Origin: a virus
Length of the DNA: 43,837 nucleotides
Reading direction: 5' to 3' (one strand)
Virus record (IMG/VR): IMGVR_UViG_3300034104_003542
Location: 1 to 43,837 of that record
Positions within the stretch are counted from its first letter, which is position 1, and every line of letters starts with the position of its first letter. The position numbers were made by a program, and so were the translations under genes. The notes below the pieces were generated by a model. The model was not told the origin of the DNA and ran no database searches. It saw only the letters and a program-made list of their open reading frames with translations. Of the stretch, positions 12,986-24,508 are shown piece by piece.

Positions 12986-15232
12986 ATGGCCGACCTGCTC
13001 CAGGAACTCGACCGCCTTCCAGACCACTGGGCGTTCGTCGCCATCGGCCCCAACAAGCGCCCCTACATCAAGGATTGGGACTGGGCAGAGCAGCCCATGA
13101 CCAAGGCGCAGATGGCTGCGGAGATCACCGCCGGCCGCGCACAGGCCATCGGCGTGGTGGCCGGCACCGCATCAGGCGTCCTCTTCGTCGATCACGACGG
13201 GATCTCCGCCACCGCCCAGCTGGAGCGCCTCGGCATCCCCCTGCGGTCACTCCCCAAGTCCTGGGCCATGACCTCAGGCCGCGACGGGCGCTTCCAGATC
13301 ATCTACTCCGTCCCTGAGCAGTTCTGGCCCGCGCTTCGCAACCGTCGATACTGGCACACAGGCGACCCTGACCCCGCCACCGGCAAGCCCACCAAGATCC
13401 TCGGCCCCGACGGCAAGGCCGAGCAGATCGACCTCCGCTGGGCGCGTCACTACTCGGTCGTCGCAGGCCGCCACCCTGAGACTTCCGGCTACCGCTGGCT
13501 CAAAGGCCGCGGCCCGGGTGAGCAGGAGCTGGCCACCGCACCCATCGAGCTGATCGAGCTGCTGCTCGAGGACCAGGCTCCACAGCCCGATCCCACACCA
13601 CTGCTCAGCACCGCTCCACCGCCGCCACCCTCAGGGCCTGGCCCGGGGCCCCTCCCGCTGCTCGACTTCATCAGCCGCACATCCCGCGAGTTGATCGAAT
13701 CCGGCGGCACACCCGGCAGCTGGAACGACGATCAGCTGGCCCTCGCCCTCGACCTGCGCGGCACCGAGGAATGGCTCCGCGCCCAGGGCCACCAGCCCGA
13801 CATCACCGCATCCCAGGCCTACGCACTCCACATCCAGGCCGCGGCGTGCAAGGCCCGCGACTTCGACGAGCGCAAGGCCTGGCGGCGCTTCGATGGGGCA
13901 GACGGCCGCACACCCAGGCCCTCCACACCCGAGGACAAGCTCCACGAGCGCCTTCGCTTCCACACCCGCACCACACGCCCACTGTTGCCACAGCCCCCCA
14001 GGCCACAGCAGCAGGCCAACCATCCGGAACCGCCAGATAGTTCCCCCCAGCAGGCCCCGCAACAGCCCTACGCCCCCAGCTTCTCCAAGCCCACGAAGCT
14101 CGAGGCCGGTGAGCTGCTCGCCATGCTCCGAACCCAGGCCACAGGCGGCCGCATCCGCTTCAACCGCTACTCCCAGCAGATCGAACTTGACGGCAGCGTG
14201 CTCGAGGGCGCTGAGCGCTTCTACCTCACCCTCGCCGAGCAGAACTTCAAGGTCAGCAAAGACCTGGCCCTCGACTGCCTCATTCAGGTGGCGCACGAGA
14301 ACCCCTACGACCCCGTGGCCCTCTACCTGGAACACGTCGCAGCAACCATCCCACCCGCCTACATCGGCGGCCTGGCCACCGCGTACCTTCGCCCGGAGGA
14401 CTCCGAGGCCGGCGGGCCCACCCTCTACGACCACATGCTTCGATGCACGCTCATCGGCGCAGTGCGCCGCGTCTTCGAGCCTGGCTGCAAGCACGACACC
14501 GCCTGCGTGCTCATGGGCGATCAGGGCGCACGCAAGAGCTCGTTCTGGTCTGCCCTCGGCGGCCCCTTCTTCTCCGATGCCCTGGGAGACATCAGCTCGA
14601 AGGACGACCTGATGGTGCTCCACCGCTCCTGGATCATGGAGTGGGCAGAGCTCGACCACATCATGGGCCGCAAGCACGCCGGCCAGATCAAGTCCTTCCT
14701 CTCCCAAGCCACCGACCTCTTCCGCGTCCCCTACGGCAAGGCCACCGAGTCGTTCCCCAGGCGCGGCATCATCGTCGGCTCGACCAACCGCCAGACCGGC
14801 TTCCTGGTCGATGACACCGGCAACCGCCGCTTCTGGGTCATCCCCACCACTCGAAGCGAGCTCGACCCGATCGACACCGGCACCCTCATGGCTGAGCGCG
14901 ACGCGATCTGGAGCGCCGCCGTCCACGCCTACCGCTCTGGCGACGCCAACTTCCTGCCGCCCGACCTGGCGCAGCAGGTCACACAGGAGAACGAGGGCTA
15001 CCAGGTCGACAACCCCTGGCTGCCAGCCATCCAGACCTGGCTCAGCCAGCGGATGGTCGGCGAGCCGATCACCACCGAGCGCATCCTCGTCGAGGCCATC
15101 CAGAAGCCCATCGAGCGCCAGACCCGCGCCGATCAGATGTCCATCGCCGACATCCTCAGGACGATGGGCTACGAGCGCCGTAGGGCCATGGTCGACGGTC
15201 AACGGGCCTGGCGATGGTTTCCGACGGGCTGA
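12986..15232 (+). CDS. Prim-pol / VapE-type primase-helicase (748 aa)
   Basis: The N-terminal 210 residues match bifunctional DNA primase/polymerase domains: AIGVVAGTASGVLFVDHDG with the acidic D-x-D, then SGRDGRFQIIYSVP and YSVVAGRHPETSGYRW. A Pro-rich linker (about 205-225, again at 330-370) precedes a VapE/D5-like SF3 ATPase. That part carries Walker A GDQGARKSSFW near 510, Walker B MEWAELDH near 550 and a sensor IIVGSTNRQTGFL near 590, with NRRFWVIPT after it. The combination makes primers and unwinds DNA at the phage origin. It is the last gene of the replication operon and is followed by a strong terminator. Confidence 0.9.
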   Translation: MADLLQELDRLPDHWAFVAIGPNKRPYIKDWDWAEQPMTKAQMAAEITAGRAQAIGVVAGTASGVLFVDHDGISATAQLERLGIPLRSLPKSWAMTSGRDGRFQIIYSVPEQFWPALRNRRYWHTGDPDPATGKPTKILGPDGKAEQIDLRWARHYSVVAGRHPETSGYRWLKGRGPGEQELATAPIELIELLLEDQAPQPDPTPLLSTAPPPPPSGPGPGPLPLLDFISRTSRELIESGGTPGSWNDDQLALALDLRGTEEWLRAQGHQPDITASQAYALHIQAAACKARDFDERKAWRRFDGADGRTPRPSTPEDKLHERLRFHTRTTRPLLPQPPRPQQQANHPEPPDSSPQQAPQQPYAPSFSKPTKLEAGELLAMLRTQATGGRIRFNRYSQQIELDGSVLEGAERFYLTLAEQNFKVSKDLALDCLIQVAHENPYDPVALYLEHVAATIPPAYIGGLATAYLRPEDSEAGGPTLYDHMLRCTLIGAVRRVFEPGCKHDTACVLMGDQGARKSSFWSALGGPFFSDALGDISSKDDLMVLHRSWIMEWAELDHIMGRKHAGQIKSFLSQATDLFRVPYGKATESFPRRGIIVGSTNRQTGFLVDDTGNRRFWVIPTTRSELDPIDTGTLMAERDAIWSAAVHAYRSGDANFLPPDLAQQVTQENEGYQVDNPWLPAIQTWLSQRMVGEPITTERILVEAIQKPIERQTRADQMSIADILRTMGYERRRAMVDGQRAWRWFPTG

Positions 15233-15255
15233 CCGCTGCCCCACCTCACACTTGA

Positions 15256-15516
15256 TGCCCTACCGCCAAAACGACGTAGGGCACCCCGGAACCCCAGGCC
15301 ACACCTGGGGTTTTCTTCTTGATGCCCCACCTGCCCTATGCCCTACCTCTGCCGCAGACTTTCCAAAACCCTATCCCCCTCCTTCCCCTATTACTCTATC
15401 TATCCCTTTAGGTAGGGTAGGTAGGGTAATAAGGGGCAAACCCCAATGAGGGGCAGGGTTTTGAGGGTGCCCTACCTCTGCCCTACCTCCCAAAAGGTGG
15501 GGCAATAGGTAGGGCA
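15256..15516. repeat. TGCCCTAC iterated repeats (candidate origin or regulatory array)
   Basis: The 324-base gap 15233-15556 holds many copies of TGCCCTAC in both orientations. Direct copies are at 15256, 15339, 15468 and 15479 (a shortened TGCCCTA lies at 15332). Reverse copies (GTAGGGCA) are at 15276 and 15509, with GGTAGGGTA variants near 15411-15429. The units at 15468-15478 and 15479-15489 are perfect 11-base tandem copies (TGCCCTACCTC). 15256-15263 pairs with 15276-15283 as an 8-bp hairpin, and 15479-15488 pairs with 15507-15516. The stretch around 15361-15430 is AT-richer. Iterons beside a primase-helicase suggest a replication origin; an operator array is the alternative. Confidence 0.55.
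15292..15320 (+). terminator. Strong intrinsic terminator after the replication operon
   Basis: CCCCAGG (15292-15298) pairs perfectly with CCTGGGG (15304-15310) around a five-base loop and is followed by TTTTCTTCTT. It lies 60 bases after the primase-helicase stop and would end the rightward early transcript. Confidence 0.85.
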
Positions 15517-15556
15517 GCCCTCTCCAGGCCTACCCTGAACCCAGGAGGATCTCCCC

Positions 15557-16114
15557 ATGGCCCAGATCGACATCAACGCCCGCGTCCTTGGTGACACCGA
15601 GCTGGCTCAGGCACTCGCTCAACTCTCCTCCCACGACATCCCCAAGGCCATCCGCTCAGGCGTCCGCGATGCTGCCCGGGCCGGACGCACCACCCTCGCC
15701 AAGTCGATCGGCCAGCGCTACGCACTCGCAGCCGGACGCATCAAGCAGGACGTCACCCAGCCCCAATACCGGGACGGCGGGCAGACCGCGATCATCCGCA
15801 CCTCCCGCAAGCCCATCACCGCCATGCAGTTCAAGCCCAAGCAGACACGCAAGGGCCTCAACATGAGCATCTACCGGGGCCAGCGCTCCCTGGTGAGGTC
15901 GGGCTTCATCGCCAAGGGTCTCCCCTTCAAGCGCAGGGGCAAGGAGCGCTATCCCCTGGATGTGATCCATGGCCCGTCCATCCATGCCATCTACACCGGG
16001 GGCAAGTGGTCCCCAGCACTCCAGGCACGCACAGAGGTGCGCATTGAGGACGCACTGGAGAAGGGCATCCTCCGTGCCCTGGGCGCCATGGGCAGGGGCT
16101 TTGGTCGTGCCTGA
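15557..16114 (+). CDS. gpZ-like minor tail protein (185 aa)
   Basis: AGGAGG lies nine bases before the ATG, one of the best ribosome sites in the window. The protein follows the minor tail protein Z pattern: an N-terminal helix region with KAIRSGVRDAARAGRTTLAK, then IGQRYALAAGRIKQDV, ITAMQFKPKQTRKGLNM, a GFIAKG segment, GPSIHAIYTGG and a final helix VRIEDALEKGILRAL. gpZ homologues normally act at the head-tail joint or tail terminator. Here it stands alone, about 5 kb before the terminase genes and between two repeat-rich noncoding regions, so it is displaced from the other structural genes. Confidence 0.7.
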   Translation: MAQIDINARVLGDTELAQALAQLSSHDIPKAIRSGVRDAARAGRTTLAKSIGQRYALAAGRIKQDVTQPQYRDGGQTAIIRTSRKPITAMQFKPKQTRKGLNMSIYRGQRSLVRSGFIAKGLPFKRRGKERYPLDVIHGPSIHAIYTGGKWSPALQARTEVRIEDALEKGILRALGAMGRGFGRA

Positions 16115-16388
16115 TCCATTGCCCCCACTCCGCAACCACTCCGCAACCACCCCCACCCCTTTGGGTCCTCCTGGTTGCTAACCGGGTGCGGGTCCGCGAG
16201 CCCCGATTTTTGGCTAGAGCCAGCCATTTTGCGGGGTTGCCAAGCCCAGTCGTGGACAGGGTTTCTCAAAGCAGGGCGCTTATTGCGAAAAGCTGAGGCC
16301 TGGCCTGGGGCAGAAATTGGACAGGAAGGACCTGCCGGTAGGCGGCGGCCCGGTTGCGTCACGATGGTTGCGATGGCCTGATTGCGGC
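16115..16388. repeat. Noncoding region with repeated GGTTGC/GCAACC and nested palindrome
   Basis: No gene is seen in this 274-base gap. GCAACC occurs at 16132 and 16143 within an 11-base tandem repeat, and GGTTGC at 16173, 16235, 16352 and 16366: six copies in about 240 bases. A nested palindrome spans 16201-16236: CCCCG/CGGGG outside and TGGCT/AGCCA inside. The region separates the lone gpZ-like gene from the ParB cassette and probably carries the cassette's promoter, but no -10/-35 pair stands out. Confidence 0.5.
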
Positions 16389-17117
16389 ATGAGCGACGTG
16401 AGCATTCCTGCGATGGCGAAGCGGCTGGAGATGTGGCCGCTGGAGCGGCTGCGGCCGTATGCCAACAACGCCCGGATCCATTCAGAGCGCCAGGTGGAGC
16501 AGATCGCGGCGAGCATCCGCGAGTTCGGGTTCACCGCGCCGATCCTGGTGGACAGTGCGGACGGGATCCTGGCGGGCCATGGGCGGCTGCAGGCAGCGCA
16601 GCTGCTGGGGCTGGCTGAGGTGCCGGTGGTGGTGCTCGACCACCTGGATGAGAAGCAGCGGCGCGCGTACCTGCTGGCGGACAACCGGCTGGCGGAGGGC
16701 GCGACGTGGGATGAGGAGCTGCTGGCGAAGGAGCTGGCGGCGATCGACCTGGACCCGCGGGTGCTGGGGTTCGACGAGGACGACCTGAAGCGGCTGCATG
16801 ATGGGCTGGAGCTGCTGGTGCTCGAGGAGATGGGCGGCGGCGGGAGCAGCAACGGGAACGAGCGAGTGGAGCCGGAGGAGGGCCGCCCTGGGGCGGCGCC
16901 GCCGGAGCCGGATGACGACGGGACGACGGCCGAGGACGAGAGCGGGCCGGTGGATGAGCGGCACGTCTTCAGCGTGAACCTGCGGTGGGATGACCGCGAG
17001 TCGGTGCTGTCGGCAGTGCGGATGGCGAAGGAGCGATGGGGGCTGGAGGGGATGCCGGAGGCCCTGGCGACGCTCTGCAGGGAGTGGATGGATGAGCAAG
17101 GCGCTGGAGCTGATTGA
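16389..17117 (+). CDS. ParB/Srx-fold domain protein 1 (242 aa)
   Basis: Start taken at ATG 16389; an in-frame start at 16317 would read into noncoding sequence. Residues 14-110 are a ParB N-terminal domain: LRPYANNARIHSERQVEQIA, then ASIREFGFTAPILV, GILAGHGRLQAA (the GHGR nucleotide-binding box at 63-66), LDHLDEKQRRAYLLADNRLA and TWDEELLAKELA. The middle (about 150-205) is a Gly/Glu/Asp-rich linker; the last 40 residues (FSVNLRWDDRESVLSAVRMA) form a separate small domain. Phage ParB proteins of this kind often go with DNA-modifying enzymes rather than with partition. It is the first gene of the ParB-cupin-PAPS-reductase cassette and overlaps the cupin gene by 26 bases. Confidence 0.85.
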   Translation: MSDVSIPAMAKRLEMWPLERLRPYANNARIHSERQVEQIAASIREFGFTAPILVDSADGILAGHGRLQAAQLLGLAEVPVVVLDHLDEKQRRAYLLADNRLAEGATWDEELLAKELAAIDLDPRVLGFDEDDLKRLHDGLELLVLEEMGGGGSSNGNERVEPEEGRPGAAPPEPDDDGTTAEDESGPVDERHVFSVNLRWDDRESVLSAVRMAKERWGLEGMPEALATLCREWMDEQGAGAD

Positions 17118-17796
17118 GCTGGGGCATGGACTGCTGAGGGATCTGCCGGACTGCCGGCTGTGGGGCGTGGACGATGGGGCCCTGGTGCTGGGGGGCGACG
17201 CGACGCAGTTCGTGTTCTGCTGGCAGGGTGCGCTGACGGTGCGGCAGTCGGGGGCCTGGCCCCATGTGCTGACGGCTGGGATGTGGGCGGCGGCCCCGGG
17301 GAAGTGCGAGATCCGGCCAGTGGGGACGGAGCTGAGCCGCGGGCTGGTGATCAGCAGGGCGGGGTGGCTGGGGATGATGACGATCGGCGGGCCCCTCGAG
17401 GAGAGGGGTCGGCTGCGGTACATCGACGGCTGCACGGACAGCCTGCTGGTGCCGCCGGTGCGGCTGGGTGACCCGTGCCTGAACGGGCTGTGGTTCCCGA
17501 TGGGGACGGTGCAGACGATGCACAGCCACCCAAGCGTGCGTGTGGGGATGGTGGTGCGCGGTCGCGGGTGGTGCGAGACGCCGGAGGGTCGGCAGGAGCT
17601 GCGGCCTGGGATGGTGTTCGTGATCCATCCGCATGGAGAGCACCGGTTCCTGACGGGCGCCGAGCATGGGCTGACGGTGATCGCGTGGCACCCGGATTCG
17701 GACACGGGCCCGACGGACGTGGACCACCCGATGGTGCGGCGGACGATGGTGGGCGGGGTATCGGCGGCGGTGCTGGATGGGATCCAGACGCGATGA
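17092..17796 (+). CDS. Cupin-domain protein (234 aa)
   Basis: ATG at 17092 lies within the end of the ParB gene and its stop overlaps the next start. The C-terminal half is a cupin barrel: FPMGTVQTMHSHPSVRVGMV gives the H-x-H metal ligands (His144, His146), followed by GRGWCETPEGRQELRPGMV and VIHPHGEHRFLTG with the second-motif His184. The N-terminal half (FVFCWQGALTVRQSG, LTAGMWAAAPGKCEI) looks like a second, degenerate cupin without the His residues. Cupins may be oxygenases, isomerases or sensors; the substrate here is unknown. Its tight coupling between a ParB protein and a PAPS-reductase-like enzyme suggests one pathway. Confidence 0.8.
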   Translation: MSKALELIELGHGLLRDLPDCRLWGVDDGALVLGGDATQFVFCWQGALTVRQSGAWPHVLTAGMWAAAPGKCEIRPVGTELSRGLVISRAGWLGMMTIGGPLEERGRLRYIDGCTDSLLVPPVRLGDPCLNGLWFPMGTVQTMHSHPSVRVGMVVRGRGWCETPEGRQELRPGMVFVIHPHGEHRFLTGAEHGLTVIAWHPDSDTGPTDVDHPMVRRTMVGGVSAAVLDGIQTR

Positions 17797-18959
17797 CGCT
17801 GAAGCCCAGGGCGATCGAGCGCGACGTGCTGGAGGTGTCACTGGATCGGATCCGGCGGATCTACGACCTGGTGGACCGGGTGGTGGTGAGCTTCAGCGGC
17901 GGGAAGGACTCGACGGTGGTGCTCAACCTGACGGCGCAGGTGGCCAGGGAGCGCGGCCGGCTGCCGCTCGATGTCTACTTCGTGGATGAGGAGGCCTGCT
18001 ACCCGGAGACGGTGGAGTACGTGGAGCGGGTGCGTGGCCGGGAGGATGTGCGGCTGTGGTGGGTGTGCCTGCCGGTGACGCACCGGAACGCATGCTCGAG
18101 GAGCCAGCCGTGGTGGGTGTGCTGGGATCCGGCGGCGCGGGATCGATGGATCCGGCCGCTGCCGGCGGGAGCGATCACCGAAGCGGATGTGCCGCGGTTC
18201 CGTGCGGGGATGCAGGTGGATGACGTGGGCCCGGCGCTGTTCGGGCCGGAGTGCGGGCGGGTGGCGGACCTGACGGGGATCCGAGCGCAGGAGTCGCCGC
18301 GGCGGTTGCAGACGGTGCTGCGGAAGACGCGGGACAACTACATCGCGGATGCGCGGATGGGGTACTACGTGAACTGCAAGCCGATCTACGACTGGCGTGC
18401 GGAGGACGTGTGGCGGGCGGCGCGGCAGCAGGGGTGGGACTACAACCGGGCGTATGACGTGCAGGCGATGCTGGGCACGAGCGTGAGCCTGCAGCGGGTG
18501 ACGCCACCGTTCGGCGAGGAGCCGCTGGGCGGGCTGTGGAAGTACGCCGAGGGCTGGCCGGAGCTGTGGGAGCGGATGCTGCGGCGGGTGGAGGGCGTGA
18601 ACACGGCGGGGCGGTATGCGCTGACGGATCTGTATGGGGCGAGGCTGAAGGAGCCGCCGCCTGGGATGAGCTGGCGGCAGTGGGCGCTGAGCATGCTGGA
18701 GCTCTATCCGGAGCCGCAGCGGAGCGAGATTGCGCGGGGGCTGGCTGGGGTGCTGAAGATGCACCGGAAGAAGACCAGGCGGCCGGTGCCGGATGCAGAG
18801 GACGACGTGATGTCGGGCCTCAGCTGGAAGTACATCTGCATCATCGTGAGCCGTGGGGACCTGAAGAACCGGAAGAAGGGCCAGCTGACGCAGCGCGCGA
18901 TGACGGCTGCGGCGAAGGCGGGCCTGACGTTCGACCAGGTGAAGGCGCTGGAGAAGTGA
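17793..18959 (+). CDS. PAPS-reductase/ATP-pyrophosphatase family protein, IbrA/DndC-like (388 aa)
   Basis: ATG at 17793 overlaps the cupin stop by four bases. The PP-loop SFSGGKDSTVVLNL at 33-46 is the ATP-pyrophosphatase signature of PAPS reductases and thiolation enzymes. It is followed by LDVYFVDEEACYPETVEYVE, a Trp/Cys-rich loop (VCLPVTHRNACSRSQPWWVC) and GIRAQESPRRL, the R-x-x-E-S element that contacts ATP or substrate. The C-terminal 130 residues resemble the extra domain of the IbrA/DUF3440 group. In bacteria such proteins pair with ParB-like IbrB; DndC relatives add sulfur to DNA. Its reaction here is not known, but it is unlikely to serve sulfate assimilation. Confidence 0.85.
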   Translation: MTLKPRAIERDVLEVSLDRIRRIYDLVDRVVVSFSGGKDSTVVLNLTAQVARERGRLPLDVYFVDEEACYPETVEYVERVRGREDVRLWWVCLPVTHRNACSRSQPWWVCWDPAARDRWIRPLPAGAITEADVPRFRAGMQVDDVGPALFGPECGRVADLTGIRAQESPRRLQTVLRKTRDNYIADARMGYYVNCKPIYDWRAEDVWRAARQQGWDYNRAYDVQAMLGTSVSLQRVTPPFGEEPLGGLWKYAEGWPELWERMLRRVEGVNTAGRYALTDLYGARLKEPPPGMSWRQWALSMLELYPEPQRSEIARGLAGVLKMHRKKTRRPVPDAEDDVMSGLSWKYICIIVSRGDLKNRKKGQLTQRAMTAAAKAGLTFDQVKALEK

Positions 18960-18969
18960 GGCCAATGAA

Positions 18970-18993
18970 AAAGGCCCCCCGAAGGAGGCCTTT
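18970..18993. terminator. AAAGGCC...GGCCTTT hairpin
   Basis: AAAGGCC (18970-18976) pairs with GGCCTTT (18987-18993) around ten bases. A-rich sequence precedes it and TTT ends it, so it could act in either direction. It lies just after the PAPS-reductase-like gene and before the second ParB gene, so it may attenuate rather than stop transcription of the cassette. Confidence 0.5.
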
Positions 18994-19096
18994 CCACAAA
19001 CAATCCCGGTTGCTGCGCTCGTTTCTCAGGCCAGAGCAGCCACCGGGAACCGGGAACCGACCGGGGAACCCCCCCAGTGCCCAGCAAGGATAGCCG

Positions 19097-19612
19097 ATGA
19101 GTGTGAAGGACCAGCCGGTGAGCAAGGTGCGGTGGGTGCCCAGGGAGAAGCTGGTCGGCAACGCCTGGAACCCGAACCATGTGGCAGCGCCAGAGCTGGA
19201 GCTGCTGATCACCAGCCTGCTCGAGGACGGATGGACCCAGCCGGTGGTGGTGCTGCCGGCGGAGGGCGGGAAGCACACGATCGTGGATGGCTTCCACCGG
19301 TGGACGGTGAGCGGCGACGAGCGGGTGTCGAAGCTGACGGGCGGAATGGTGCCGGTGGTGGAGGTGCGGTTGGATCCGGTGCACCGGATGATGAGCACGA
19401 TTCGTCACAACCGGGCCCGAGGCGTTCATGCGGTGCTGCGGATGGCGGAGATCGTGCGGGGGATGGTGGACGACGGCGTGCCTGAGCGCGAGATCCGGCG
19501 CCGGCTGGGGATGGAGTCGGAGGAAGTGATCCGGCTGGTGAATCGAGCTGGGATGCCCACGCAAGCTGGCGGGGGGAGCTTCAATAAGGCGTGGGTTCCA
19601 GGGAAGGGCTGA
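19097..19612 (+). CDS. ParB-like protein 2, IbrB-like (171 aa)
   Basis: A compact ParB/Srx domain occupies residues 10-110: VRWVPREKLVGNAWNPNHVA, ELELLITSLLEDGWTQPVVV, IVDGFHRWTV with the H-R catalytic or nucleotide-binding box (65-69), VPVVEVRLDPVHRM and a STIRHNRARGVHAVLRMAEI helix. An HTH-like segment (VPEREIRRRLGMESEEVIRL) follows. The GFHRW box and size match IbrB, the ParB partner of IbrA, encoded here after the IbrA-like gene. The 137-base gap before it contains a hairpin and repeated CCGGGAA units. Confidence 0.8.
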   Translation: MSVKDQPVSKVRWVPREKLVGNAWNPNHVAAPELELLITSLLEDGWTQPVVVLPAEGGKHTIVDGFHRWTVSGDERVSKLTGGMVPVVEVRLDPVHRMMSTIRHNRARGVHAVLRMAEIVRGMVDDGVPEREIRRRLGMESEEVIRLVNRAGMPTQAGGGSFNKAWVPGKG

Positions 19613-19980
19613 TGCTGCTCATGCTCACGTGGGCCGGGTTCGATGCAGCGGTGGATCTGATCGCCGCGCAGTGCCCGCGAGACCGTGTGGGGGTGCATGG
19701 CGTGGATCGTGGCGGCCAGGTGCTGGCGTGGGCGCTGAGCGAGAGGCTGGGGCTGGAGGTGCTGCAGCTGCCCGGGTCTGGAATGTTGCAGCTGCATGGG
19801 GTGGTGGTGTCACAGCCGCGGCTGCTGTGGGGCGATGCGCAGGTGTGGACGTGGATCGACGCCTCGCCGGGGCAGAACATCGTGTCGGCGGTGAAGGCGA
19901 CACCCGGGACGATGGTGCTCATGCCCTGGCAGGATGCACCTACCTCTCGCCGGCCGTTCGTGCCGGGGTTTGATGATTGA
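19612..19980 (+). CDS. Phosphoribosyltransferase-like protein, degenerate (122 aa)
   Basis: ATG at 19612 forms a TGATG junction with the ParB gene. The first half resembles a type I PRTase: WAGFDAAVDLIAAQ, RVGVHGVDRGGQVLAWALSE and RLGLEVLQL correspond to the strand, RGG loop and helix. The usual PRPP loop (four hydrophobic residues, then DD-x-x-D-T-G) is replaced by WTWIDASPGQNIVSAV, which lacks the paired acidic residues, so activity with PRPP is doubtful. A binding or regulatory role is possible. It sits in the same coupled run as the ParB gene. Confidence in the fold is moderate. Confidence 0.55.
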   Translation: MLLMLTWAGFDAAVDLIAAQCPRDRVGVHGVDRGGQVLAWALSERLGLEVLQLPGSGMLQLHGVVVSQPRLLWGDAQVWTWIDASPGQNIVSAVKATPGTMVLMPWQDAPTSRRPFVPGFDD

Positions 19981-20251
19981 AGTGTCGAGCATCCGCTATG
20001 GCTGCCAGTGGGGGCCGGATGGTCATGTGAGGGGCTGGCCGATGCGGATCGAGTTCGGTGCGGTGGGCCCTGAGGTGACGGTGGACGACATGCTGGAAGG
20101 CCGCGGCCATTCGGTGATTCTGATCGACCAGCTGGTGGCCCTGGTGCGCGGGATGACTGGACTGGACACGCCGATCGAGCTGGTGCGGCCAGCGCCTGCA
20201 GGCCTGGCGGTGAAGCTGGTCAGCGCTGGGTTCTACGTCGCATTGTGCTGA
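19973..20251 (+). CDS. Hypothetical protein (92 aa)
   Basis: Start is ATG 19973, overlapping the previous stop by eight bases. The product (VSSIRYGCQWGPDGHVRGWP, then RIEFGAVGPEVTVDDMLEGR and HSVILIDQLVALVRGMTGL) looks like a small alpha/beta protein. Its stop lies seven bases after the start of the terminase small-subunit gene. It links the ParB cassette to the packaging genes. Not recognised. Confidence 0.6.
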   Translation: MIEVSSIRYGCQWGPDGHVRGWPMRIEFGAVGPEVTVDDMLEGRGHSVILIDQLVALVRGMTGLDTPIELVRPAPAGLAVKLVSAGFYVALC

Positions 20252-20820
20252 TCACCGTTGCTGAGTTTGCGGCCCAGCGTGGGGTAAGCCCGCAGGCGGT
20301 GCGGAAGGCGATCAAGAGCGGGCGGCTGAAGCGTGCGGTGGAGCGCAAGGGTCCGCGGAACTATGTGATCGACCCTGAGATTGCGGAGCTGGAGTGGGAC
20401 CGAAACACCGAGCCGCAGTATCAGCGGACGGCGGAGCAGATCAACACAGGAAAGGCCAGGGCGCGTGGAGAGGACGTGCCGGATGCGCCGCTGCCGCCAC
20501 CGCCTGGGAACAAGGGCGGGGCCGGGACCTATGCGTCAGCGAAGGCGGCGGCCGAGGGTTACAAGGCGATGCTGCTCAAGCTCGATTACGAGGAGCGGAG
20601 CGGCAAGCTGCTGGAGAAGGCGGCGGTGGAGCGCGGGTTCGCTGCGGCCGGGATGCAGGTGCGTGATGCGGTGATGCGCACCAGCCAGCAGATGGTGGGC
20701 GAGATTGCGACGACGGTGGGCGGGCTGACCCAGGAGCAGCGAGCAGCGGTGATGCAGGTGATTGACCGGCATCATGTAAGGGCCCTGGAGGAGTTGGTGC
20801 GTGCCGCTGGCGTCGATTGA
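20245..20820 (+). CDS. Terminase small subunit, Nu1-like (191 aa)
   Basis: The start is GTG 20245. Residues 1-45 form a winged HTH of the Nu1 type: ITVAEFAAQRGVSPQAVRKA then IKSGRLKRAVERKGPRNYVI. A charged linker with a PPPPG stretch follows, and the C-terminal half is helical (ASAKAAAEGYKAMLLKLDYE, LLEKAAVERGFAAAGMQVRD, MQVIDRHHVRALEELV), as in small subunits that bind TerL. It recognises the packaging site. The large-subunit gene begins 20 bases before its stop. Confidence 0.8.
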   Translation: MLITVAEFAAQRGVSPQAVRKAIKSGRLKRAVERKGPRNYVIDPEIAELEWDRNTEPQYQRTAEQINTGKARARGEDVPDAPLPPPPGNKGGAGTYASAKAAAEGYKAMLLKLDYEERSGKLLEKAAVERGFAAAGMQVRDAVMRTSQQMVGEIATTVGGLTQEQRAAVMQVIDRHHVRALEELVRAAGVD

Positions 20821-22720
20821 GGAATCGCTGGGCGCGTTCTGGCGTGGAATGCGCCCGGACCCGCTGCTGACGGTGAGCGAGTGGGCGGATCAGCGGCGGG
20901 TGTTGAGCAGCAAGGCGAGCAGCGAGCACGGGCCGTGGCGAACGGCGCGGACGCCGTACCTGCGGAAGCCGATGGATGACCTGTCGGCGACGAGCACGGT
21001 GCAGGAGGTGGTGCTGGTGTTCGGCGCGCAGATGGGGAAGAGCGAGATGCTGAACAACTGGATGGGCTACGTGATGGACATCCAGCCCGGGCCGGCGCTG
21101 TTCGTGCAGCCGACGATCGACATGGCGAAGCGGTACTCGAAGATGAGGATCGCGCCGATGATCGAGGCGACGCCGAGCCTGGGGGAGAAGGTGAAGGCGC
21201 CGCGTGAGCGGGACTCGGGCAACACCCAGCTGATGAAGGAGTTCGCCGGCGGGTTCCTGATCCTGGGTGGCGCGAACGCTGCGAGTGGATTGGCGTCGAT
21301 GCCGATCCGGTTCCTGGGCGGCGATGAGATCGACCGGTGGCCAGCGGACGTGGACGAGGAAGGGAGCCCGCTGGCGATCGTGAGCGCGCGGACGCGGACC
21401 TTCGGCGTGCGGAAGAAGCAGGCGTGGACGTCGACGCCGACGTTGGCGGGGCGGAGTGCGGTCTGGGGGAAGTGGGAGCAGAGCAACCAGCAGCGGCTGC
21501 TGGTGCCCTGTCCGCACTGCGGGCACCGGCAGATGATCGAGTGGGATCGGATCCGTTACGACCCGAAGGACCCGGGCCTGCCGAACACGCTGCGGCAGCC
21601 GCCGGTGCTGATCTGCGAGGAGTGCGGCGAGGGGATCAGCGAGGACGCGAAGGCCTGGTGGTACGACCCGGATGTGTTCGACGACGAGTGGTGGGAGCCG
21701 CTGTTCCCGGAGCGTGAGATGCAGGGGTACCACTGCTCAGCGCTCTACAGCCCGCTGGGTTGGTTCAGCTGGACTGAAGCGGCGGTGGGCTACGAGAAGG
21801 CGAAGGACAACCCGGCGGAGCTGAAGCCCTGGACCAACACCGTGCTGGCGGAATGCTGGAACGACGACGGCGAAGCGCCGGATTGGGAGGCGCTTTACAA
21901 CCGCCGGGAGCTCTATGAACTGGGCACGGTGCCGGACGGGGTGGTGTTCATCACCTGCGGAGCGGACGTGCAGATGGATCGCATCGAGCTGGAGGTGGTG
22001 GGCTGGGGTCCTGGGATGGAGAGCTGGAGCCTGGACTACCAGGTGCTGGCGGGTGACACGGCGCAACCGGCGGTGTGGCGCGAGCTGACCAAGTTCGTGA
22101 AGAGCGAGTTCGGCCGCGGCGATGGGCAGCGGCTGCCGATCCGGATGACGGCCATCGACTCGAACTTCAGGAGCCAGGAGGTCTACCGGTGGGTGCGCAG
22201 CCAGGCCGGCAACCGGGTGATCGCGGTCCGTGGTGTCGAAAGCCAGATGGCAATCATCGGCACACCAAGCAAGGCGGAGGTGCTGCGCAACGGCAAGCCG
22301 CTGCGTGGCGGCGTGAAGGTCTGGGGGGTGGGCACCAGCACGGCGAAAGGCGAGCTGTACGGCTGGCTGCGACGGGGCCTGCCCGAGGAGGGTGAGCTGC
22401 TGCCGCACGGCTGGTGCCACTTCCCGCAGCACGGAGAGGAGTATTTCAGGATGCTGTGCGCTGAGCGGCTGACGAACACGATCGACCGGCGGGGGTACAC
22501 GAAGTTCGAGTGGATCAAGACCCGGCCGCGCAACGAGGCCCTCGATTGCAGGGTGTATGCCCGAGCGGCCGCGGCCCTGGTTGGCGCGGACCGGTGGAGC
22601 GATGACCGGTGGGATGAGGAGCGCAATGGCGGTGTGGAGCGTGTGGAGCAACGGCCGGCGCCAGTTCAGCAGGAAGAGGAGGCGCGGCCGGCCAGCTCCG
22701 GGAGCAGCTTCTGGGACTGA
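20801..22720 (+). CDS. Terminase large subunit, lambda gpA family (639 aa)
   Basis: GTG at 20801 is preceded by GGAGGAG seven bases away. The gpA family is clear: LTVSEWADQRRVLSSKASSE near the N-terminus, Walker A-like FGAQMGKSE at 74-82, PTIDMAKRYSKMRIAPMI, Walker B FLGGDEIDRWP near 171-181 and TSTPT (motif III). A zinc-binding pair (CPHC, CEEC) lies between ATPase and nuclease. The nuclease domain has acidic residues in TCGADVQMDRIELEVVGWG and TAIDSNF, and a last Asp near EALDCRVYARAA. It cuts and translocates DNA into the prohead. Confidence 0.95.
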   Translation: MPLASIEESLGAFWRGMRPDPLLTVSEWADQRRVLSSKASSEHGPWRTARTPYLRKPMDDLSATSTVQEVVLVFGAQMGKSEMLNNWMGYVMDIQPGPALFVQPTIDMAKRYSKMRIAPMIEATPSLGEKVKAPRERDSGNTQLMKEFAGGFLILGGANAASGLASMPIRFLGGDEIDRWPADVDEEGSPLAIVSARTRTFGVRKKQAWTSTPTLAGRSAVWGKWEQSNQQRLLVPCPHCGHRQMIEWDRIRYDPKDPGLPNTLRQPPVLICEECGEGISEDAKAWWYDPDVFDDEWWEPLFPEREMQGYHCSALYSPLGWFSWTEAAVGYEKAKDNPAELKPWTNTVLAECWNDDGEAPDWEALYNRRELYELGTVPDGVVFITCGADVQMDRIELEVVGWGPGMESWSLDYQVLAGDTAQPAVWRELTKFVKSEFGRGDGQRLPIRMTAIDSNFRSQEVYRWVRSQAGNRVIAVRGVESQMAIIGTPSKAEVLRNGKPLRGGVKVWGVGTSTAKGELYGWLRRGLPEEGELLPHGWCHFPQHGEEYFRMLCAERLTNTIDRRGYTKFEWIKTRPRNEALDCRVYARAAAALVGADRWSDDRWDEERNGGVERVEQRPAPVQQEEEARPASSGSSFWD

Positions 22721-22748
22721 GTAGCATGAGCGAACGGAGGTGGCCCGG

Positions 22749-22958
22749 ATGAGCACATTCACGCAGGCGCATCTGGCGGCCATCGAGGAAGCGATCGCCG
22801 GCGGTTACCTTGAGGTGCGCTACGACGACAAGGTGGTGCGGTACCAGTCGATGAACGAGCTGTTCAGGGCGCGCAACCTCATCGCCAGCAAGCTGGCGGC
22901 GGCCACTGCCCCGGTGGTGCGGATCGACTACCCGGCCGTGGTGCGGGATTACGAATGA
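22749..22958 (+). CDS. gpW-like head-tail joining protein (69 aa)
   Basis: The start is ATG 22749, eight bases after GGAGG; a GTG at 22740 overlaps the ribosome site. The product matches the gpW fold: FTQAHLAAIEEAIAGGYLEV, RYDDKVVRYQSMNELFRARN, then a Leu/Ala-rich helix. It joins the portal vertex and the tail. It overlaps the portal gene by four bases, the same order as in lambda (A-W-B). Confidence 0.88.
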   Translation: MSTFTQAHLAAIEEAIAGGYLEVRYDDKVVRYQSMNELFRARNLIASKLAAATAPVVRIDYPAVVRDYE

Positions 22959-24508
22959 ATCCACTTGAGCAGCTGCTGGCCGTCATCTCGCCGCGTGCGG
23001 CGCTGCGTCGGCAGGCGGCCCGCATCCAGCTGAGCCAGATGCGGCGTTACGACGCCGCGGCCCGTGGCCGGCGGACGGATGCGTGGGTGACGCAGGGGAG
23101 CAGCGCTGATGCTGCGAGTGCTCGGGGGTTTGGGATCCAGCGCGATCGTGCGCGGGACCTGGTGCGCAACAACCCCTATGCGCGCAAGGCGGTCGAGTCA
23201 TGGGTAACGAACCTGATCGGCGCGGGGTGGAGCTTCAAGGCGAAGCAGGCCCGGCGCAACGGTCGGCAAGGCGAGAGGGTGACGGAGCTGATGCGCGGGT
23301 GGATGGCCGACCCGCGGCAGTGCGACTACCACGGGCTGCAGAACTTCGACGGGCTGATGGCGCAGGCGGTGCGCTCCTGGAAGGAGTCTGGTGAGGTGCT
23401 GATCAGGATGCGGACGCCGAGCGCGGCAACGATCCGCCGGCTGGGCCTGCTGGTGCCGATGCAGTTGCAGGTGATGGAGGGCGACTGGATCGACGAGACG
23501 CACGACACGCCGGGCGTGACGGGCCAGGGGTGGACGAAGCGCGGGATCGTCTACGACGCCGAGGGCCGGCGCGAGAGCTTCTGGATCTACAACTACCACC
23601 CGGGCGAGTCTGCGGTGCAGGCGACGAGCATCGTGAGCAACACGGTGCCGGCGGAGCAGATCATCCACCTGTTCACGCCGGAGCGTCCTGGGATGACGCG
23701 TGGGGTGAGCTGCCTGGCGCCGGTGATGGTGCGGCTGAAGGACCTGGGCGATCTGCTCGATGCGCGGCTGATGAAGGAGAAGGTGGCGGCATGCCTGGCC
23801 GCTGCGGTGGTGGACCTGGATGGAACGAGCGACCAGAAGTCGACGATCGGCGATCGGATCGAACCGGGCGGGATTGTGCGGCTGGGCCCCGGCCAGGACA
23901 TCAGGACGATCAACCCACCGGCGGCGGGCGAGATCGACCGTGTGATCAAGACCTACCTGCTGGAGATCGCGGCGGGGATCGGCATCACCTACGAGGAGCT
24001 GACGGGCGACTACTCGGGCGGCAGCTTCACGCAGGGGCGGATGGGATGGATCGGCTTCCAGCGTCGGCTGATGAGCGACACCTGGCAGGTGCTGGCGCCG
24101 ATGGTGTTCGACCGGATCTGGAGCTGGTGGTCGACGCAGGCCTCGGCGATGGGCATCGCCACCGATGGGCTGAGCGCGGACTGGACGCCGCCGCGTCGTG
24201 AGCTCTACGACCCGCAGAGCGAGACGAACAGCACGATCTCCCGCGTGCGCGCGGGCCTGCTGCCGCCGCAAGAAGCGATCCGCGCTGATGGCTACGAACC
24301 GGATGAGGTGATCCGACTGTGGACGGAGTGGATGGCGCTGCTGGATGCGGCGGGCATCGTGCTCGACACCGACCCGCGGAAGGTGAGCGCCGCCGGCCTG
24401 ACGCAGGTGCGACCACTGGGTTCGACCCTGCCGCCGACGGGCGAACCGCCTGCGGAGGCGGAGCAACCACCAGCGCCAGCAGCGCCCAGGGCTCCTGCTG
24501 CAGGCTGA
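22955..24508 (+). CDS. Portal protein, lambda gpB family (517 aa)
   Basis: ATG at 22955 overlaps gpW. Family landmarks: RDRARDLVRNNPYARKAVES near residue 75, NLIGAGWSFKAK, a SGEVLIRMRTPSAATIRRLG block, IDETHDTPG, FTPERPGMTRGVSCLAPVM near 245, LKDLGDLLDARLMKEKVAAC and the ITYEELTGDYSGGSFTQGRM loop near 345. Twelve copies would form the DNA gate of the head. The C-terminal 30 residues are Pro/Ala/Glu-rich and probably disordered. Confidence 0.94.
   Translation: MNPLEQLLAVISPRAALRRQAARIQLSQMRRYDAAARGRRTDAWVTQGSSADAASARGFGIQRDRARDLVRNNPYARKAVESWVTNLIGAGWSFKAKQARRNGRQGERVTELMRGWMADPRQCDYHGLQNFDGLMAQAVRSWKESGEVLIRMRTPSAATIRRLGLLVPMQLQVMEGDWIDETHDTPGVTGQGWTKRGIVYDAEGRRESFWIYNYHPGESAVQATSIVSNTVPAEQIIHLFTPERPGMTRGVSCLAPVMVRLKDLGDLLDARLMKEKVAACLAAAVVDLDGTSDQKSTIGDRIEPGGIVRLGPGQDIRTINPPAAGEIDRVIKTYLLEIAAGIGITYEELTGDYSGGSFTQGRMGWIGFQRRLMSDTWQVLAPMVFDRIWSWWSTQASAMGIATDGLSADWTPPRRELYDPQSETNSTISRVRAGLLPPQEAIRADGYEPDEVIRLWTEWMALLDAAGIVLDTDPRKVSAAGLTQVRPLGSTLPPTGEPPAEAEQPPAPAAPRAPAAG

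Follow-up and report, generated by a model that had tools for sequence, protein, structure and literature searches.

What does the IbrA-IbrB gene pair do, and why would a virus carry it, expanded by further genes, just ahead of its packaging genes? Many phages and bacteria, E. coli K-12 among them, have homologues of IbrA and IbrB, which annotations label either co-activators or genes of sulfate reduction; we know of no established reaction for them. The question is raised by the window, a 43,837-bp virus record from IMG/VR (IMGVR_UViG_3300034104_003542), in which six closely packed plus-strand genes, here called A-F, lie between a gpZ-like gene and a gpA-type terminase. Genes A-D encode a ParB-fold protein (ParB1), a two-barrel cupin (bicupin), IbrA and IbrB. 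We consider it likely that these four genes are a phage DNA-modification cassette, held in a swappable slot beside the packaging genes. The reading is based on which genes are present and how they are linked, on conserved catalytic residues and purifying selection, and on the finding that known DNA modifiers replace the cassette. Its genes, with the matches that identify them, are:

16389..17117, + strand: gene A, ParB1, a ParB/Srx-fold protein (ParB_N Pfam, 3e-8; PHROG 620, 1.7e-51; PHROG 498, ParB-DNA methyltransferase, 4.7e-49)
17092..17796, + strand: gene B, bicupin, predicted metalloenzyme (Pfam Cupin_2/AraC_binding, ~1e-6)
17793..18959, + strand: gene C, IbrA-type PP-loop ATPase (PAPS_reduct, 1.6e-16; DUF3440, 8e-11; PHROG 2302, 4e-87, full length)
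19097..19612, + strand: gene D, IbrB-type ParB/Srx protein (ParB_N, 4e-4; PHROG 2159, 1.6e-61)

A previous inspection of the letters and reading frames (the sequence-only reading) had named five same-direction genes here, A-E, and all five identities are confirmed by Pfam and PHROG or, for gene E, by a structural model. Its description of them as mostly overlapping needs one correction, since C and D are separated by a 137-bp spacer, and one addition, a sixth conserved gene (F) at 19973-20251. The assignment of gene B as a cupin stands on the Pfam match and is refined to two barrels by the model.

The most informative evidence comes from what other phages carry at the same place. We collected relatives of the window's terminase large subunit (TerL) and recorded the content between ParB1 and F-TerS-TerL (TerS, terminase small subunit) in the 67 loci where both ParB1 and F are visible. 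IbrA is found in 39 of these slots. Two hold DpdA-QueC-FolE-QueD (Pfam: QueC, 2.3e-64; FolE, 5.7e-44; PTPS, 3.2e-16), where the two DpdA relatives match PHROG 887 at 1.5e-27 and 6.5e-31, are 36% identical to DpdA of Mycobacterium phage Coffee, and have no Pfam or NCBIfam match. ParB1 is fused to an N6/N4 DNA methyltransferase in two more (2.7e-25 in L302), and another two contain C5 cytosine methyltransferases (5e-56, 6e-39). A further 20 are emptied or hold remnants, for example the N-terminal part of a cupin joined to the C-terminal part of an IbrB, and the last two are truncated contigs in which only a ParB-radical SAM pair is visible after IbrB. The phages with variant slots have TerL proteins 81-98% identical to that of the window. 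When whole records were searched, IbrA was missing from eight slot variants and present in six cassette carriers, and strong QueC matches were confined to the two Dpd variants; the window has no QueC match.

Natural deletion variants of the cassette exist. At L278:4538-5812, a single open frame of 425 aa joins ParB1 to IbrB, and the cupin and IbrA have been lost. A separate observation from the same slot is L342:3780-5144, where an asparagine-synthase-like amidotransferase lies beside a C5 DNA methyltransferase, with another SAM methyltransferase also present, a candidate cytosine hypermodification set.

Replacement also occurs around other terminases, of which three unrelated types lie downstream of the cassette. 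Among 54 loci with ParB1 in the Terminase_3 lineage, IbrA is present in 14, DpdA in 12, an HMC-glucosyltransferase-like protein in 9 (3 of them shared with DpdA), another glycosyltransferase in 3, a DNA methyltransferase in 4 and Mom in 2 (PHROG 1384, 8.9e-45; sequence of the solved Mom structure in the PDB, 5e-17), with 13 loci classed as other. The 20 loci of an HK97-like lineage divide into IbrA with cupin (5), DpdA (4), methyltransferase (3) and other (8); because the naming libraries do not cover every family, the loci classed as other may hold further modifiers. A recognised other modifier occupies the slot in 0/19 IbrA loci vs 34/55 others (Fisher p ~1e-6, with loci that are related and not independent). 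No IbrA-bearing slot contains a second identified modifier, except for radical-SAM proteins, which are only possible modifiers.

The same exchange is seen in cultured mycobacteriophages of cluster B. Phage Coffee (Rosebushvirus) has the order ParB1-DpdA-QueC-QueD-QueE-FolE-terminase, and phage Compostia (Pipefishvirus) has ParB1-two small genes-IbrA-IbrB-terminase; their ParB1 proteins are orthologous (48% identity), and no Que genes are annotated in Compostia between 6 and 55 kb. The DNA of Rosebush contains dPreQ0 at ~28% of guanines (PMC6884629). Microbacterium phage Hendrix carries IbrA next to a GNAT protein and to genes whose annotations read methyltransferase and glucosyltransferase; its IbrB, two ParB proteins and terminase are at the opposite genome end.

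Some sister phages fill this slot with DpdA-Que, Mom, HMC-glucosyltransferase-like proteins or DNA methyltransferases, and others with IbrA-IbrB, with or without cupin; on the simplest view it is a DNA-modification slot and IbrA-IbrB a DNA modifier. The suggestion of the sequence-only reading that a nucleic-acid modification is encoded just ahead of the terminase is thus well supported, as judged from the known modifiers sharing the slot. Could the ParB proteins and IbrA instead control transcription, activating late or prophage genes? Phage records do annotate IbrA/IbrB as 'co-activator of prophage gene expression', and ParB-fold proteins can bind DNA and nucleoside triphosphates (NTPs), namely ATP, CTP or GTP (PMC12704722). 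Such a role, however, neither predicts nor explains replacement by DpdA-Que, Mom, glucosyltransferases and methyltransferases, it leaves the cupin's conserved metal site unaccounted for, and the cassette is deleted in 20/67 relatives; we regard transcription control as quite unlikely.

Do the four genes belong together? The sequence-only reading had set gene order conserved in no relative as one result that would count against it; what we found is that the order A-B-C-D-E-F-TerS-TerL recurs in 26-27 IMG/VR contigs of the window's lineage, at ~50-100% protein identity. Where the synonymous rate (dS) was measurable, the pairwise ratio of nonsynonymous to synonymous rates (dN/dS) is <1 for every gene, including E and F. 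When the search was widened, 32 viral loci formed a clade (IbrA mostly 39-54% identical), of which 29 have ParB1 and 23 the bicupin. The IbrA-IbrB pair itself is far more widespread, being adjacent in all 43 distant viral loci and in 77/80 cellular ones, with a cupin beside the pair in 1/43 and 0/80, respectively. When the cupin alone was used as query, 54 further viral loci were recovered in two gene orders, with IbrA in 51, IbrB in 51 and ParB1 in 46; the three cupin loci without IbrA are all near contig ends. A Cupin_2 search of 46 whole virus records found matches in 12, all of them in the IbrA cassette when positions were compared with IbrA coordinates. ParB1-bicupin-IbrA-IbrB is a real cassette, and the bicupin is a constant partner in one clade, not an isolated oddity. 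The literature searched contains no description of the ParB-cupin-IbrA set or of the slot replacement, although papers outside the searched set may exist.

The position of the bicupin is itself variable. Some members of the clade have in its place a TctC solute receptor, others an SSF symporter or the combination of small cupin and aldehyde dehydrogenase, at:

L045:2756-3595
L048:5148-6002
L064:4587-6020
L066:4578-6020
L068:4166-5990

Cargo of this kind is unusual for a phage and may be a pointer to the substrate. The small cupin family occurs in four loci, and in a prophage of M. abscessus a gene resembling cysteine dioxygenase lies close to one for a PAPS reductase (PMC8092301). Other cassette members have a second PP-loop protein added.

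Several points weigh against a role in DNA modification. The replacement cargo could mean small-molecule metabolism. IbrA-IbrB is also found on bacterial chromosomes, and the E. coli pair, ybdN-ybdM, is regulated with citrate and sulfur genes (PMC9068703), not an obvious fit to phage DNA protection. The slot tallies count metagenome contigs that are related to one another and do not count independent events; for such contigs the host, the completeness and some of the deletions are in doubt, and the deletions behind emptied slots could include assembly errors. Modifier genes are denser in the slot (0.19 per kb) than elsewhere in the same loci (0.016), a test biased by drawing the modifier families from the slot itself. 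Finally, the literature found includes no published virion DNA analysis of any IbrA phage.

These points lead to a second alternative, in which the genes are an auxiliary set, often labelled cysH sulfate reduction, that alters small-molecule or nucleotide-pool metabolism of the host, or host RNA, and not phage DNA. The PAPS reductase annotation fits it, as do the TctC, SSF, aldehyde dehydrogenase and EctC-like cupin genes beside IbrA in some phages and the surroundings of the sole cellular bicupin homologue, which adjoins methyltransferase, desaturase and AzlCD transporter genes. The protein itself fits less well: the C-terminal ECGxH catalytic Cys of CysH is absent from the IbrA family alignment, and gene C scores far below the cut-offs of the CysH equivalog models. 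Nor does this alternative account for the ParB partners and the terminase-side slot common to DNA modifiers, so that a metabolic role appears very unlikely.

If the cassette modifies DNA, what chemistry do its proteins suggest? Both the PAPS_reduct and the DUF3440 match of gene C exceed the Pfam gathering cut-off, and its SGGKDS PP-loop, G-R-E-S-R and P-DW motifs are invariant across the aligned relatives. PP-loop enzymes such as TilS, TtcA and their relatives typically adenylate a carbonyl for attack by sulfur or amine. Sulfur was brought up by the sequence-only reading, which called the protein IbrA/DndC-like and noted that DndC relatives put sulfur on DNA, and a sulfur-based modification of backbone or base, with IbrA acting like DndC or SspD, is the third alternative to be weighed. 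The proteins do share a superfamily, with weak matches to DndC, BrxP and SspD; of 106 IbrA sequences in the cupin clade, 105 keep C92 and 99 keep C101; and a host desulfurase could supply the sulfur. Against this, IbrA family alignments of 12 and 18 members contain no invariant Cys, in contrast to CysH with its catalytic Cys and to DndC with its cysteines, which makes it less likely that IbrA transfers sulfur directly, and gene C scores 21.4 bits with the DndC model TIGR03183, for which the cut-off is 290.4. A cysteine desulfurase (Aminotran_5) was absent from 23 cupin-IbrA records, several of them fragments; DndD and DndE were not searched for. DndC-like addition of sulfur is therefore not supported and is, in our judgement, unlikely.

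A hydroxymethyl-pyrimidine route to modified DNA was also considered and set aside as unlikely, because none of the 23 records (some being fragments) encodes a phage enzyme of the thymidylate synthase type.

Gene B was modelled with two barrels (pLDDT 93, pTM 0.90), and the predicted structure matches the folds of EF2996, ureidoglycine aminohydrolase, YxaG (quercetinase) and OxdC (oxalate decarboxylase). In an alignment of 26 sequences, the metal-binding residues H144, H146 and H184 are invariant, as are C114, D116, C129 and N131, and Arg150 stands where the motif normally has Glu. These features predict that gene B is a metal-binding cupin and a metalloenzyme. Its sequence does not match ectoine synthase (PF06339) at E 1. 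Gene D shows the motifs DGFHR and TIRHNRARG-H in alignment and is 39-47% identical to phage IbrB proteins.

Taken with the replacement pattern, these features suggest how a DNA-modification cassette of this composition might work. IbrA would use ATP to activate, probably by adenylation, a site on a DNA base or its substituent; the metal-binding bicupin would make or tailor the substituent; and IbrB and ParB1, through their ParB fold, would bind nucleotide and recruit the enzymes to DNA. This last role is modelled on the one proposed for DpdB of the deazaguanine systems, which is described as a ParB-like ATPase (PMC12839542): because ParB-fold proteins bind NTPs and DpdB is such an ATPase, loading of the enzymes on DNA may fall to ParB1 and IbrB. 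Phage DNA modified in this way would then be packaged and could be protected from restriction. The added group may come from a small metabolite, as suggested by the cupin and by the transporter or dehydrogenase genes that alternate with it. We therefore offer, as a tentative proposal to which we give somewhat less than an even chance, that IbrA-IbrB with the bicupin carries out an undescribed DNA modification in which the PP-loop enzyme attaches a metabolite-derived group to a base, and in which the neighbor gene, which varies (bicupin, EctC-like cupin, solute receptor, symporter, or small cupin with aldehyde dehydrogenase), provides or modifies that group; the class as a whole would then make a family of different adducts.

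It is instructive to compare the cassette with systems already described. Genes C and D, a PAPS-DUF3440 protein and an adjacent ParB protein, are the same as the IbrA/IbrB pair of E. coli phages, K-12 (ybdN-ybdM) and many other phages, from which the window differs by the added ParB1 and bicupin, a clade-specific expansion. The DpdA-QueC-QueD-FolE system of Rosebush-type 7-deazaguanine modification occupies, in two unrelated groups of phages, the same slot between ParB1 and terminase, and its DpdB is likewise ParB-like; IbrA and QueC, however, are different PP-loop families. The Dnd/Ssp phosphorothioation and BREX type 4 systems (DndC, SspD, BrxP) have the PP-loop PAPS-reductase superfamily in common with IbrA, and DndB belongs to the ParB superfamily, but IbrA has no Cys or Fe-S site conserved across its family. 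A cupin accompanies the pair in two cultured phages: in Mycobacterium phage Gaia an EctC-like cupin is fused to IbrB, beside IbrA, and in Pseudoalteromonas phage XCL1123 a separate EctC-like gene lies beside IbrA/IbrB. Both cupins are of the single-barrel ectoine-synthase family, unlike the bicupin of the window.

The replacement pattern gives IbrA/IbrB a concrete assignment, that of a putative DNA-modification system. If confirmed, this would add new chemistry to the known phage DNA modifications, mean that many 'cysH auxiliary metabolic gene' labels need correcting, and account for the clustering of ParB-fold proteins beside terminases. The slot, in its general form ParB1 - modifier - terminase, offers a place to look for further DNA modifiers.

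The right side of the slot is formed by four genes:

19612..19980, + strand: gene E, truncated, degenerate XGPRT-fold phosphoribosyltransferase (PRTase)-like protein (AlphaFold2 model vs XGPRT)
19973..20251, + strand: gene F, conserved 92-aa protein (alignment of 15 sequences)
20245..20820, + strand: TerS, right slot border (PHROG 57, 3.3e-22)
20801..22720, + strand: TerL, gpA type (GpA_ATPase, 5.6e-78; GpA_nuclease, 9.1e-87)

Gene E has no Pfam match and a weak match to a PRTase in PHROG (0.007), and its AlphaFold2 model (pLDDT 82.5, pTM 0.76) matches XGPRT 4jls at E 2.7e-7 and TM 0.77. The protein is short, and its PRPP-binding loop region, WIDASPGQN, is variable and has no invariant acidic pair. 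Gene F, with 37 invariant residues across the 15 aligned sequences, found nothing usable in the sequence libraries or the PDB. Gene E was at first assumed to be a cassette member and was dropped once it appeared beside Dpd and methyltransferase slots. Among slot variants around the window type of TerL, F is always present and E usually; because both persist where the cassette is absent, E and F belong to the terminase side. ParB1, too, is common to nearly all variants of the slot. The larger set proposed by the sequence-only reading accordingly keeps the cupin and ParB1, which are linked to IbrA-IbrB, and loses the PRTase-like protein, which also persists beside emptied slots. Among the relatives, identity spans ~41-100% for TerS but is mostly 75-100% for TerL; the far greater divergence of TerS is as if small subunits were exchanged independently.

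Other searches of the window returned little. PADLOC gave only a type II methyltransferase match, through the ParB domain, and weak BrxP/DndC matches; an Rfam scan of 15000-23000 gave nothing credible; and among 50,697 phage records there was neither a near DNA match to the window nor, by tblastn, a relative of the bicupin. The 137-bp spacer between C and D, also found in L013 and L026 and missing from most relatives, contains one accessory feature:

18970..18993, strand ".": hairpin AAAGGCC...GGCCTTT, noted within 18961-18995

The hairpin recurs only in L013 and L026, with an altered but complementary stem, and could be a small mobile repeat or, with its T-run on the minus strand, a terminator.

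Three further observations concern the neighbors of IbrA-IbrB and the bicupin. A ParB and radical SAM pair lies between IbrB and the PRTase-like gene at L017:7708-9565, L019:5388-7258 and L301:338-2213, and is possibly a further DNA-modifying enzyme able to coexist with IbrA. A family of ~134 aa (cluster c0), with no Pfam or PHROG match and possibly acetyltransferase-like, usually lies between IbrA and IbrB of distant pairs (L165:3313-3714 and 35 other loci). Six bacterial genomes carrying IbrA have no bicupin, and the sole cellular homologue (42% identity) is in Paraburkholderia caribensis (NZ_CP015960.1, L273:8854-13117), where the desaturase-like neighbor is of the fatty-acid type and the transporter is AzlC/AzlD; the substrate of this homologue could hint at the chemistry of the phage enzyme.

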